35,032 bases of DNA from Flavobacteriaceae bacterium (GTDB taxonomy: Bacteria; Bacteroidota; Bacteroidia; Flavobacteriales; Flavobacteriaceae). Within the stretch, counting starts at the first letter, position 1. Each line of letters opens with the position of its first letter. Positions 1 to 20,912 of the stretch are shown piece after piece. The position numbers were made by a program, and so were the translations under genes. The notes under the pieces were generated by a model. That model was not told the origin of the DNA. It saw only the letters and a program-made list of their open reading frames with translations, and did not search any database. The stretch spans positions 1 to 35,032 of the forward strand of contig JAKMGK010000089.1 of NCBI GenBank assembly GCA_022424955.1, given 5' to 3'.

Positions 1-453
1 AGTAAAGAGAATAAAACAAAGGTCGGCCTCCCGTCGTATATTAAAGGATTAGCCATTTTTGCATTGATTTTAACCTTAGTTCAAATTGCCATGGGAACTC
101 AAGTAAGACAGTTTGTAGACGAACAAATTGATCTTTTAGGCGAAGGAACTCAGGCCTTATGGCTGGATCCTGCACCCATTTTATTTTATGTGCATCGCAG
201 TTTTTCCCTTTTAGTCACTGGACTCAATATTTGGCTTTTTCTACGATTGAGAAAGCTAGGTTTCCCCACCCAACACATGCAACAAGTTTTAGCCTTAATT
301 GGACTAGAAATCATAACTGGGATATTGATGTATTACTTCGATTTTCCATTTAGCAGTCAACCCCTACATTTACTCTTTGCTTCCGTACTTTTTGGGGCAC
401 AGAGCTATTTATTATTCCACTTATTTCAACCCACACAATCCACTTCCAAATGA
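1..453 (+). CDS. ctaA: Heme A synthase (COX15/CtaA family), C-terminal part, cut by window start
   Basis: The reading frame is open from base 1, so the ATG/TTG start listed in the ORF track (64) is internal; the true start lies upstream of the window. The visible part is a hydrophobic membrane protein with about four transmembrane segments. It carries GTQVRQ after a membrane helix, then a loop, then a helix with VHRSF, and a final helix with HLLFA. Paired histidines in helices are the heme-binding pattern of CtaA/COX15, which converts heme O to heme A for the aa3-type cytochrome oxidase; GTQVR is typical of the Bacteroidetes version. The stop overlaps the next gene's start (ATGA), suggesting translational coupling. 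The family call is from recognition of these motifs, not a search. Confidence 0.8.
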   Translation, partial: SKENKTKVGLPSYIKGLAIFALILTLVQIAMGTQVRQFVDEQIDLLGEGTQALWLDPAPILFYVHRSFSLLVTGLNIWLFLRLRKLGFPTQHMQQVLALIGLEIITGILMYYFDFPFSSQPLHLLFASVLFGAQSYLLFHLFQPTQSTSK

Positions 454-941
454 TTTTTCGTTTCCGTATTATTTTAGACGCCCCTGGAGATATTTTTCGT
501 GACTTAGAAATTGAAGCTACCGCTAGCTTAGAAGATTTTCATTATGCTATCGCTCAAGCCTTTGGTTTTGGAGGTAGCGAAATGGCTTCTTTTTACACCA
601 CTAATGATGAATGGGAACAAGGAGAAGAATTACCGCTTTTAGATATGGGAGAAGGTACTACCCCTATGGCAGGGAAGAGCTTAGATAAATTCTTTAGTGC
701 AGATAATCACCACTTGATTTATGTCTATGACTTTTTAGCCATGTGGACCTTTTTTGTTGAATTAATGGAAATAGGAGAAGCTGTTCCCGCTATGGGATAT
801 CCCAATCTTGTTTTTGCGCAAGGGGAAGTTCCAGAAGAAGCTCCAGAAAAAGAATTTAGTAGTGAAGAAAGCGCAGAAGACTTTAATGATAACGATCAAG
901 AAGAAGGCCTTCTTGACTATGACGATGCCGACTTTTATTAA
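450..941 (+). CDS. pRiA4b ORF-3-like / IS1096 passenger TnpR-like fold protein
   Basis: A 163-residue protein starting FRFRIILDAP and containing SLEDFHYAIAQAFGF, the usual signature of the plasmid pRiA4b ORF-3 family (PF07929). Members are often misnamed IS1096 passenger protein TnpR. They are small alpha/beta proteins of unclear function, widespread as ordinary chromosomal genes, and nothing nearby looks like a transposon. From about residue 126 the protein becomes a very acidic tail (many E and D, ending DDADFY), probably disordered. The start overlaps the heme A synthase stop by four bases, and the stop overlaps the stop of the convergent gene by four bases. Family assignment is fairly sure; function is unknown. 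Confidence 0.75.
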   Translation: MIFRFRIILDAPGDIFRDLEIEATASLEDFHYAIAQAFGFGGSEMASFYTTNDEWEQGEELPLLDMGEGTTPMAGKSLDKFFSADNHHLIYVYDFLAMWTFFVELMEIGEAVPAMGYPNLVFAQGEVPEEAPEKEFSSEESAEDFNDNDQEEGLLDYDDADFY

Positions 942-2008
942 GAGGACTGAATCAATTTTGTCATATTGAGATTTTCATAATGCCTGCGAACATAATCCAA
1001 AGAAGCTTCCATGATATCTCCAGCACTTTTAGCTAACTTAAAGGTATCATCTTTTGTAAACTTAAAGATTTCTGCCCTTAAATTTTTCAAGTAGTCTGGC
1101 TGAGTCAAATGGTCTTGTTTCATAATGGTCACTAAATTATCTAGACGCACACCCGAACTAATGATTCGTTTTGCTAAGATCGAACGCTCTTCTATTTTAT
1201 ATTGATTGACAGAATCTAGCGTAAGCTTGTCTTTAACAATAGATACCATGGGGTAATTCTCTATAAAGAATTGCGGGCGATATACTTTTAGCTTTCCTTC
1301 ATAACACTGTTGATCAAAATCAATGGCGCGTATTTTATAAATTACCTGATCAAAATCATGGGTAGGAATCACCACATAATTATAAGCGCGCATATCTCCT
1401 AACAAACGAATCATACAACGTTCATTAAACTTGACATACTCCTTAGCGATTTGCGCCTGTTGCGCTGGGGTGCAGTCGGCTAAAAAGTCTTCGATAAAAA
1501 TATCTCCAGGGATGCCAGCAATATGCTCTTCGATCAAGGTAGTATCGTTGACTAAAAAGTTAAGGTTATGAGGAGATAACATATGTTCAAACTCTAGGCC
1601 ATAGACCCTTGAAGCGTCGGTGCGCTTTACATAGAAATAGGTAAAGTTGTCATTCAAAACATTTCTAATCTTAATGCGAAAGGGCTTTGAATTCCCAAAG
1701 GTGCAATAGTCTATAGCATCGACATTGAGGTAAGGAATGGATGCTTCATTTCCATCAGAATGCAATATCGCATAGACCTTTTTGAGATTGTAATCAATAT
1801 CTTCTCTTTCACTATCGGTATAATATACCCGTACCCAGAGGGTGTCCTCGTCGTTTTCGTCATAAACTACAATGGAACCAGAAAAACGCAACAAGTCTTC
1901 ATAAAAGATAGGCGTAAAGACCCAGCGATTATACTGCTTCAAGTAAGCATTAAGCTCTGAAGTAATCGGGAAAAAAGGTTTTTTCTGGGAGATGAGTTTC
2001 TCTTCCAT
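938..2008 (-). CDS. Unnamed conserved-looking protein with kinase-fold-like motifs
   Basis: I do not recognise a named family for this 356-residue cytosolic protein (no signal peptide or membrane helix). Residues 124-161 read like a small beta-rich lobe with a lysine (YFYVKR, K128) and later acidic residues. LGDMRAYNYVV (203-213) aligns position by position with the HGDLHPGNILV-type catalytic loop of aminoglycoside-phosphotransferase/HipA-type kinases, with D205 and N210 in place. AIDFDQQ (229-235) follows where the metal-binding DFG/DFD would be. A helical C-terminal region follows. The gene has its own Bacteroidetes-type promoter and converges on the pRiA4b-like gene with a 4-base stop overlap. 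It is divergent from uvrB. The kinase-like fold is my inference; substrate unknown. Start ATG is the first one after the promoter. Confidence 0.8.
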   Translation of the reverse strand: MEEKLISQKKPFFPITSELNAYLKQYNRWVFTPIFYEDLLRFSGSIVVYDENDEDTLWVRVYYTDSEREDIDYNLKKVYAILHSDGNEASIPYLNVDAIDYCTFGNSKPFRIKIRNVLNDNFTYFYVKRTDASRVYGLEFEHMLSPHNLNFLVNDTTLIEEHIAGIPGDIFIEDFLADCTPAQQAQIAKEYVKFNERCMIRLLGDMRAYNYVVIPTHDFDQVIYKIRAIDFDQQCYEGKLKVYRPQFFIENYPMVSIVKDKLTLDSVNQYKIEERSILAKRIISSGVRLDNLVTIMKQDHLTQPDYLKNLRAEIFKFTKDDTFKLAKSAGDIMEASLDYVRRHYENLNMTKLIQSS

Positions 2009-19301: not shown

Positions 19302-20912
19302 TTATTCTGGTAATTGAATCCAGCTAAATTCTAGCTTTAAGGGATCCAATTGTTCAAAAAGTAAGTGGAGTAAATCTTCGCCATGCGACAAATAAAATTC
19401 AAAGAAGTTGGACTGCCTTTCTTGGAGAGAATTGTTAGGAAAAAGCATTTCATGCAAAAGGGTAAGTCGTTGAACATGATCGACTAATTTTTTCTTTTGG
19501 GCGTTGAGTAAACGCTTTTCAAGGGCGTCTATCCCGTTAAATTGCTTTTGCTTTTGAGCTTTTACTGTCCCTTCAAAAGAAGGATCGGTTGACTGGACTA
19601 GACTTTCTAAATATTCAAATTGTTCTTCCAGTTTTTCTTTTAAAAACTGAAGATCTAAATCGATATTACTAATCTGCCTTATTTTTTTATTAATGAGCGC
19701 AGTTCGATTTAAAAATAGTTCTTCTTTATCGAGATCGAGTTGTTTGATTTTCCTTATTGTCTTTTGGGTCGCTAATACAGCAGAATTACGCAGTAATAGC
19801 AAAGGAAAAGGCACTGCTTCTTTTTTAAAAAACGCTTTGAGTTCTAACCAATAGGCAATTTCTCCCCCTCCCCCTATATAGCAAAGGTTAGGTAAAATAA
19901 CTTCTTGATACAAAGGGCGCATTAAAACATTAGGCGAAAAACGCTCTGGATGATTTTCTACTTCTGCCCAAAGTGCTTCTTTGGTAAAAGTAGTATTGCT
20001 CTCTGTTGTGGCATAAGCGGTCGGGGTCTTAACGATGCGCTCACGCAGTTTATCTGTGAGATAAAATAAGTTGATCTCTCTAGGGTTGACTTGTGGGGCA
20101 TATTGGTCAGAATAATTCGTTTGAATCTTTTCAATGGTTCCTTCAACTGCGACTTTACAATGGTGATGTTCTAGGTCATTTTTAATCTGGGAGACAAAAC
20201 AAGCCTTTAGGTCTTTTCTATCTGCATCGAGAATCACTAACCCTTCTTCCCCAAAAAAATGATGTACCAGCTTTTGGGTCGCCTCGCCTAGATTAGCGGC
20301 AGTGCGATAAGTCTTTTGTATAATTGCTTTTATCTCTTTTGCACGGTCACTATCGCCCAGTAACTTTTCAAAAATATCGAGTAAAGGGCCTAAGGAGGCT
20401 AAGGATAAACGGCCTACTGGACCCTGACTTTGTTCGTTCCATTGTAGTTTCTTTCCTTGAAAAAAGAAATAAGAAATTTCTTCAAAATCGTGATCTTCAG
20501 TCGCCATCCAATACAACGGGACAAAATCAAATTGCGGGTACTTTTGCTTGAGCTGTTTACACTGTTTAATGGTCGAAATGATTTTATAAAAAAAATAAAG
20601 CGGCCCGGTGAATAAATTAAGCTGATGCCCTGTTGTAACGGTAAAGGTGGTTTCTTTTGCTAAAAGCGAGAGTTGTGCATCAACTTTCTTAGGTGAAGAT
20701 AGTCCTTGGTATTGCGCTCTTAAAGCTTTGATCAATGTTTCCCGTGTAGATAAAGCGTAATGTTTTTGCTTTACTGCAATCTGTTTTTCAAATTCTTCTA
20801 AACGAACTGGTCCTGAAACCAAAGACTCAAGAGCAGGATGTCCTTCAATGAGGTCGCAAATTAAGGAAGAAAAATAGCCTGTATTTCGATAAGGAATACG
20901 GGTTAATGCCAT
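19302..20912 (-). CDS. bshC: Bacillithiol biosynthesis cysteine-adding enzyme BshC
   Basis: Adds cysteine to glucosaminyl-malate in the last step of bacillithiol synthesis, the low-molecular-weight thiol used by Firmicutes and many Bacteroidetes in place of glutathione. The 536-residue length is normal. Typical BshC stretches are visible: IPYRNTGYFSSL near the N-terminus, TTGHQLNLFTGPLYFFYK, PLYWMATEDHDFEEI, a central NLCYIGGGGEIAYWLELKAFF, and a long C-terminal coiled coil. bshA and bshB are not in the window. It is divergent from the M14 peptidase and upstream of guaA (59 bases). Confidence 0.96.
   Translation of the reverse strand: MALTRIPYRNTGYFSSLICDLIEGHPALESLVSGPVRLEEFEKQIAVKQKHYALSTRETLIKALRAQYQGLSSPKKVDAQLSLLAKETTFTVTTGHQLNLFTGPLYFFYKIISTIKQCKQLKQKYPQFDFVPLYWMATEDHDFEEISYFFFQGKKLQWNEQSQGPVGRLSLASLGPLLDIFEKLLGDSDRAKEIKAIIQKTYRTAANLGEATQKLVHHFFGEEGLVILDADRKDLKACFVSQIKNDLEHHHCKVAVEGTIEKIQTNYSDQYAPQVNPREINLFYLTDKLRERIVKTPTAYATTESNTTFTKEALWAEVENHPERFSPNVLMRPLYQEVILPNLCYIGGGGEIAYWLELKAFFKKEAVPFPLLLLRNSAVLATQKTIRKIKQLDLDKEELFLNRTALINKKIRQISNIDLDLQFLKEKLEEQFEYLESLVQSTDPSFEGTVKAQKQKQFNGIDALEKRLLNAQKKKLVDHVQRLTLLHEMLFPNNSLQERQSNFFEFYLSHGEDLLHLLFEQLDPLKLEFSWIQLPE

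Follow-up and report, generated by a model that had tools for sequence, protein, structure and literature searches.

A conserved Bacteroidota gene without a family name in the libraries searched is predicted to encode a distant kinase-fold protein

The question raised by the locus described here is whether a 356 aa protein from a Flavobacteriaceae bacterium, in which the initial annotation had noticed an apparent kinase-type catalytic loop, has a kinase fold and, if so, to which family it belongs. The gene for this protein is part of a contig (JAKMGK010000089.1) for which a stretch of 35,032 nucleotides, referred to here as the window, was analysed. The list of open reading frames contains an open frame of 356 codons, of which the stop codon occupies positions 938–940, and one copy of the gene is present in this genome. 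In comparisons with three close relatives, the synonymous differences were near saturation (pS 0.79–0.87) and the non-synonymous differences were low (pN 0.06–0.10), with comparable values for the neighbouring uvrB. This frame is a real gene that is under strong purifying selection, and its coordinates and those of the features discussed below are summarized in Table 1.

Table 1. Coordinates of the kinase-fold gene and its predicted parts, and loci where bshA lies upstream of a family member
Feature	Residues	Position in window	Strand	Basis or remark
Whole gene, predicted kinase-fold protein of an unnamed Bacteroidota family	356 aa	938..2008	(-)	ORF, single copy, relatives, purifying selection
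N-terminal region before the kinase core	1–93	1730..2008	(-)	Secondary structure of the model, invariant columns
CTFGNSKPFR, loop joining N-lobe strands 1 and 2	102–111	1676..1705	(-)	Model and conservation
Candidate ATP-binding lysine on third N-lobe strand (121–129)	K128	1625..1627	(-)	K in 149/149 relatives
Helix C equivalent	132–144	1577..1615	(-)	E139 kept in 148/149 relatives; E141 in 149/149, candidate salt-bridge glutamate
Catalytic loop LLGDMRAYNY	202–211	1376..1405	(-)	D205 candidate catalytic base, N210 candidate metal ligand
DFDQQ, candidate metal-binding DFG-equivalent	230–234	1307..1321	(-)	D230 and D232 invariant
All-helical C-terminal part without long activation segment	235–344	977..1306	(-)	Model
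Loci with bshA upstream of the family member				L118, L119, L121–L125, L127, L147, L148

Relatives of the protein were detected in 100 of the 396 sampled Bacteroidota genomes, nearly always in one copy; these include 38 of the 42 genomes from the family of this organism, many more from the same class and 28 from outside of this class. The distant clades that carry the gene are probably Rhodothermia. Within the family, identity falls to about 37%. A genome scan yielded at least 578 confirmed relatives. Eighty of these show 63–90% identity and are labelled as Flavobacteriaceae or related Bacteroidetes, with the exception of one contig labelled Rhodospirillaceae (L037, MED667); its 67% identical copy adjoins uvrB in the same arrangement as in flavobacteria, and the contig is probably mis-binned. 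No relatives were found in the phages, plasmids and viral contigs that were searched, and hence there is no sign of a mobile gene, while the presence of a single copy together with a wide distribution fits a core enzyme. In one genome (G091), besides the usual family copy (at L129), a second, divergent copy was observed (L128:5219-6322), which is 37% identical and has kept the catalytic residues; it sits between a clpP-like gene (25 bases upstream) and a clpX-like gene (114 bases downstream) on the same strand.

The initial annotation had aligned the sequence LGDMRAYNYVV with the catalytic loop of kinases and had pointed to AIDFD and to a lysine in YFYVKR as further elements of a kinase active site. 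These sequences were found where it had placed them, the loop at residues 203–213, D230 and D232 within AIDFD, and the lysine corresponding to K128. The conservation that it had proposed to examine for D205, N210, D230 and D232 proved to be complete, as these residues, together with K128, E141 and F231, are invariant in all 149 relatives that were compared, which extend down to about 37% identity. The spacing between N210 and D230 is 20 residues in 148 of these relatives and 19 in one. Other residues that never vary in this set are K10, R28, W58, C102, N106, P109, R111, E160, H162, G165, M206, Q233, Y243, P245, N251 and Q269. Position 207, which is two residues after the presumed catalytic Asp and corresponds to Lys168 of protein kinases, is occupied by R in 129 relatives and by H in 20. 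A strict form of the motif ([HL]GD....N followed by a hydrophobic residue, then DF[D/G/E]) was present in 150 of the 150 family members, but in none of 20000 shuffles of the protein or 1104 unrelated ORFs. However, a loose form (D....N...DxD) occurred in 3672 of the 20000 shuffles. The bare motif is thus weak evidence, because its loose form is common by chance, and it is the conservation that carries the case.

The structure of the protein was modelled using AlphaFold2. A first model, for which 39 close relatives were aligned, was of poor quality, with a pLDDT of 64, and was replaced by one based upon an alignment of 66 diverse sequences, for which the pLDDT was 91.3 and the pTM 0.88. In the region preceding the kinase core, the latter model shows helices at residues 17–25 and 65–84 and a beta hairpin at 44–62, and the columns for K10, R28, Y36, W58 and Y79 are invariant. 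The modelled N-lobe consists of strands at 94–102, 110–116 and 121–129, the last of which carries K128, and a helix at 132–144 with E139 and E141. These are followed by strands at 151–153 and 157–161, a hinge (E160-E161-H162), helices at 168–178 and 181–201, the loop 202–210 containing D205 and N210, a long hairpin (211–218/221–228), the DFD sequence at 230–232, and helices to the end. In this model, the elements follow one another as in a kinase domain whose segment after the DFG-equivalent is short and whose C-terminal part is helical. The loop 102–111, within which C102, N106, P109 and R111 are invariant, is a candidate nucleotide-binding loop on account of its position.

When the model was compared with the PDB using Foldseek, 80 matches were obtained at E<=0.001 (best E 2.7e-5, probability 1.00), and the best 50 of these 80 were all kinase or pseudokinase domains. 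Nearly all of the matches listed from the viral library are annotated protein kinases, and for the poor first model only kinases were found among the matches listed. The TM-scores for the PDB matches were just 0.2–0.4, with rmsd often 15 Å, indicating no close global superposition; the relation to known kinases is hence distant, and a stronger claim is prevented. We infer a bilobal fold from the order of the elements and the E-value, and not from a good global superposition, and we read the protein as belonging to a distant kinase-fold family.

When Pfam, NCBIfam, PADLOC and the PDB were searched by sequence and profile, no significant match emerged, and no paper on this family was found in the literature searched. 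In a Pfam scan of 66 members the matches were scattered and weak, and no kinase-clan family was among the matches listed. The family profile was also compared by means of hhalign with six kinase alignments built here (APH, HipA_C, DUF2252, ABC1, Pkinase and SelO) and ten unrelated controls, and none of the six kinase families separated from the controls. For both Pkinase (PF00069) and SelO (PF02696), there was no Pfam match among those listed for the 66 members and no significant hhalign similarity. Two weak candidates were rejected, viz. the PTM/DIR17 Tudor domain (PF21743), which scored 17 bits over residues 41–74 only (gathering threshold 27.2), and Csx19, for which the match was short and weak (E 0.001). 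The sub-threshold Tudor likeness, at 1787–1888 (-) in the window, was seen in 15 of the 66 members with a best E of 1.1e-4. These sequence comparisons leave the family unnamed in the libraries searched, which together with the model supports the suggestion of an uncharacterised kinase-fold family made in the initial annotation.

That the family is instead a divergent member of APH (PF01636), HipA (PF07804) or DUF2252 (PF10009) appears quite improbable to us. In distant members, the catalytic loop and the DFD region read LLGDMHSGNFVV...RAIDFDQQ, which by eye is near the HGDxHxGN of APH, where these members show a GDxHxGN-like loop, and also near the GDxHxxNFG...NDFDE of DUF2252, with which the family shares the active-site wording GDMH..NF...DFD. 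APH was also the best of the 16 hhalign comparisons and was aligned at the catalytic loop; however, its score of 24.8 against a control maximum of 22.8 (probability 1.5%) is non-significant and at the level of unrelated controls. No Pfam match to APH, HipA or DUF2252 was found among those listed for the 66 members, and the invariant K10, R28, W58, C102, GNSxPFR and DFDQQ are specific to the kinase-fold family, which also differs from APH in having Leu for His before GD. Unlike DUF2252, which is listed with flipped N- and C-lobes (PMC9758233) and gave no significant profile match, the N-lobe comes first in this family. HipA resembles it in being bacterial and having a kinase-like fold, but the HipA loop (D..H.(K/R)N) is without GD and the best hhalign match to it was out of register. 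Further, HipA_C was not found in the organism's own genome, and the gene neighbourhoods of the family contain no conserved small partner gene, as a HipA antitoxin would be. The likeness to aminoglycoside-phosphotransferase or HipA-like kinases that had been claimed initially holds at the level of the loop only, and no significant profile match was found by hhalign.

Alternatively, the kinase fold could be used otherwise, by a pseudokinase that acts as an ATP-sensing scaffold or by a nucleotidyl transferase like SelO. The best Foldseek E-values were for the JH2 pseudokinase domains of JAK2 and TYK2, and the DFDQQ motif, with its invariant Q233, and the LLGDM motif are both unusual. The JH2 domains are eukaryotic, and their TM-scores are 0.3–0.4 with an identity of only 9–15% in the structural alignment. 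However, all of the canonical catalytic residues are kept here without exception, whereas pseudokinases usually lose them, and no profile likeness to SelO was observed; we consider such a use of the fold unlikely. It is highly improbable that there is no kinase fold, with a coincidental motif and a misleading model or Foldseek result. Although the TM-scores are below 0.5, the PDB matches listed are exclusively kinases, the catalytic set is invariant, and the order and spacing of the elements are correct at high model confidence.

On the reading that we favour, and regard as probable based upon the sequence and the model, the gene product adopts a protein-kinase-like fold and works as a soluble, active phosphotransferase that depends on ATP and metal; it would found a family unnamed in the libraries searched. 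The replacement of the HRD histidine by leucine counts against this reading. We infer that the protein binds ATP and is catalytic, with its residues in the following roles. K128, with E141 as its partner, would hold the phosphates of ATP, and the loop 102–111, in which GNSxPFR (105–111) would replace the glycine-rich loop, would cover the nucleotide. D205 would serve as the catalytic base that activates the acceptor, and the metal ions would be coordinated by N210 and D230 (and D232); D232 and Q233, which are family-specific, may bind metal or substrate. Together, the first 93 residues, which are conserved, and the C-terminal part, which is all-helical, would make up the substrate site.

The features that distinguish ELK from EPK kinases have been described, and in the small-molecule ELK group the post-DFG segment is short and the C-terminal part helical (PMC4702295). 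Our family is similar to ELK kinases in both of these respects and also in the order of the elements, the beta3 Lys, the helix C Glu, the D....N loop and the DFG-type Asp. It differs from them in showing no sequence-profile match, in the long hairpin and the spacing of 20 residues between N and D, and in its conserved extra N-terminal region. Most ELKs have an insert between helix E and the catalytic loop and are without Arg or Lys at the position two after the catalytic Asp (PMC4702295); unlike most of them, our family is without this insert. In two features, the short stretch that follows DFD and the C-terminal subdomain made of helices, the model is closer to small-molecule (ELK) kinases than to classical protein kinases. 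However, as a basic residue is present two positions after D205, a protein substrate is also possible.

The gene mostly stands by itself in flavobacteria: the neighbour from which it diverges is uvrB or an ABC transporter, and the one towards which it is convergently oriented is PRiA4_ORF3 or a different gene. This neighbourhood provided no functional clue. In the window, a protein resembling PRiA4_ORF3 (Pfam E 1.6e-17), whose C-terminal tail is very acidic, is encoded at 450–941 (+), and the end of this gene overlaps the stop of the kinase-fold gene by 4 bases, tail to tail. A 129 aa ORF at 64–453 (+) corresponds to the C-terminal part (239–320) of COX15-CtaA only; its start may be cut by the window edge, or it may be separate. 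In 10 of the 14 members from outside the class, the gene immediately upstream, on the same strand and about 2–90 bases away, is bshA (bacillithiol glycosyltransferase); NCBIfam identifies the product at L118 as BshA (574 bits, cut-off 274). A single ancestral operon may have given rise to these ten loci, which may therefore represent just one event, and bshA, the sole recurrent functional link of this gene, provides a lead only. BshC, the cysteine-adding enzyme of bacillithiol synthesis, is encoded at 19302–20912 (-) in the window (NCBIfam 428 bits, cut-off 266); as bshC is present in 385 of the 396 Bacteroidota genomes, phylogenetic co-occurrence is uninformative. In other branches the neighbours, as read from the sequences, are different: a small membrane protein together with a Pcm-like gene; genes for a BtuF-like protein, FBP aldolase and a cystathionine-synthase-like enzyme; or clpP and clpX. 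One speculation, which we deem improbable, is that a phylum-level core kinase linked to the thiol redox state uses the invariant Cys102, adjacent to the presumed nucleotide loop, as a redox or bacillithiolation switch, by which bacillithiol status would be passed on to the phosphorylation of a metabolite or protein. If true, this would explain why the gene follows bshA in one deep branch.

A single-copy gene with an intact kinase active site has been kept across much of the Bacteroidota, from flavobacteria to a separate class, and it has no name in the libraries searched. It likely carries a basic function that annotation has missed, and if its substrate were assigned, the kinase superfamily would gain a family.
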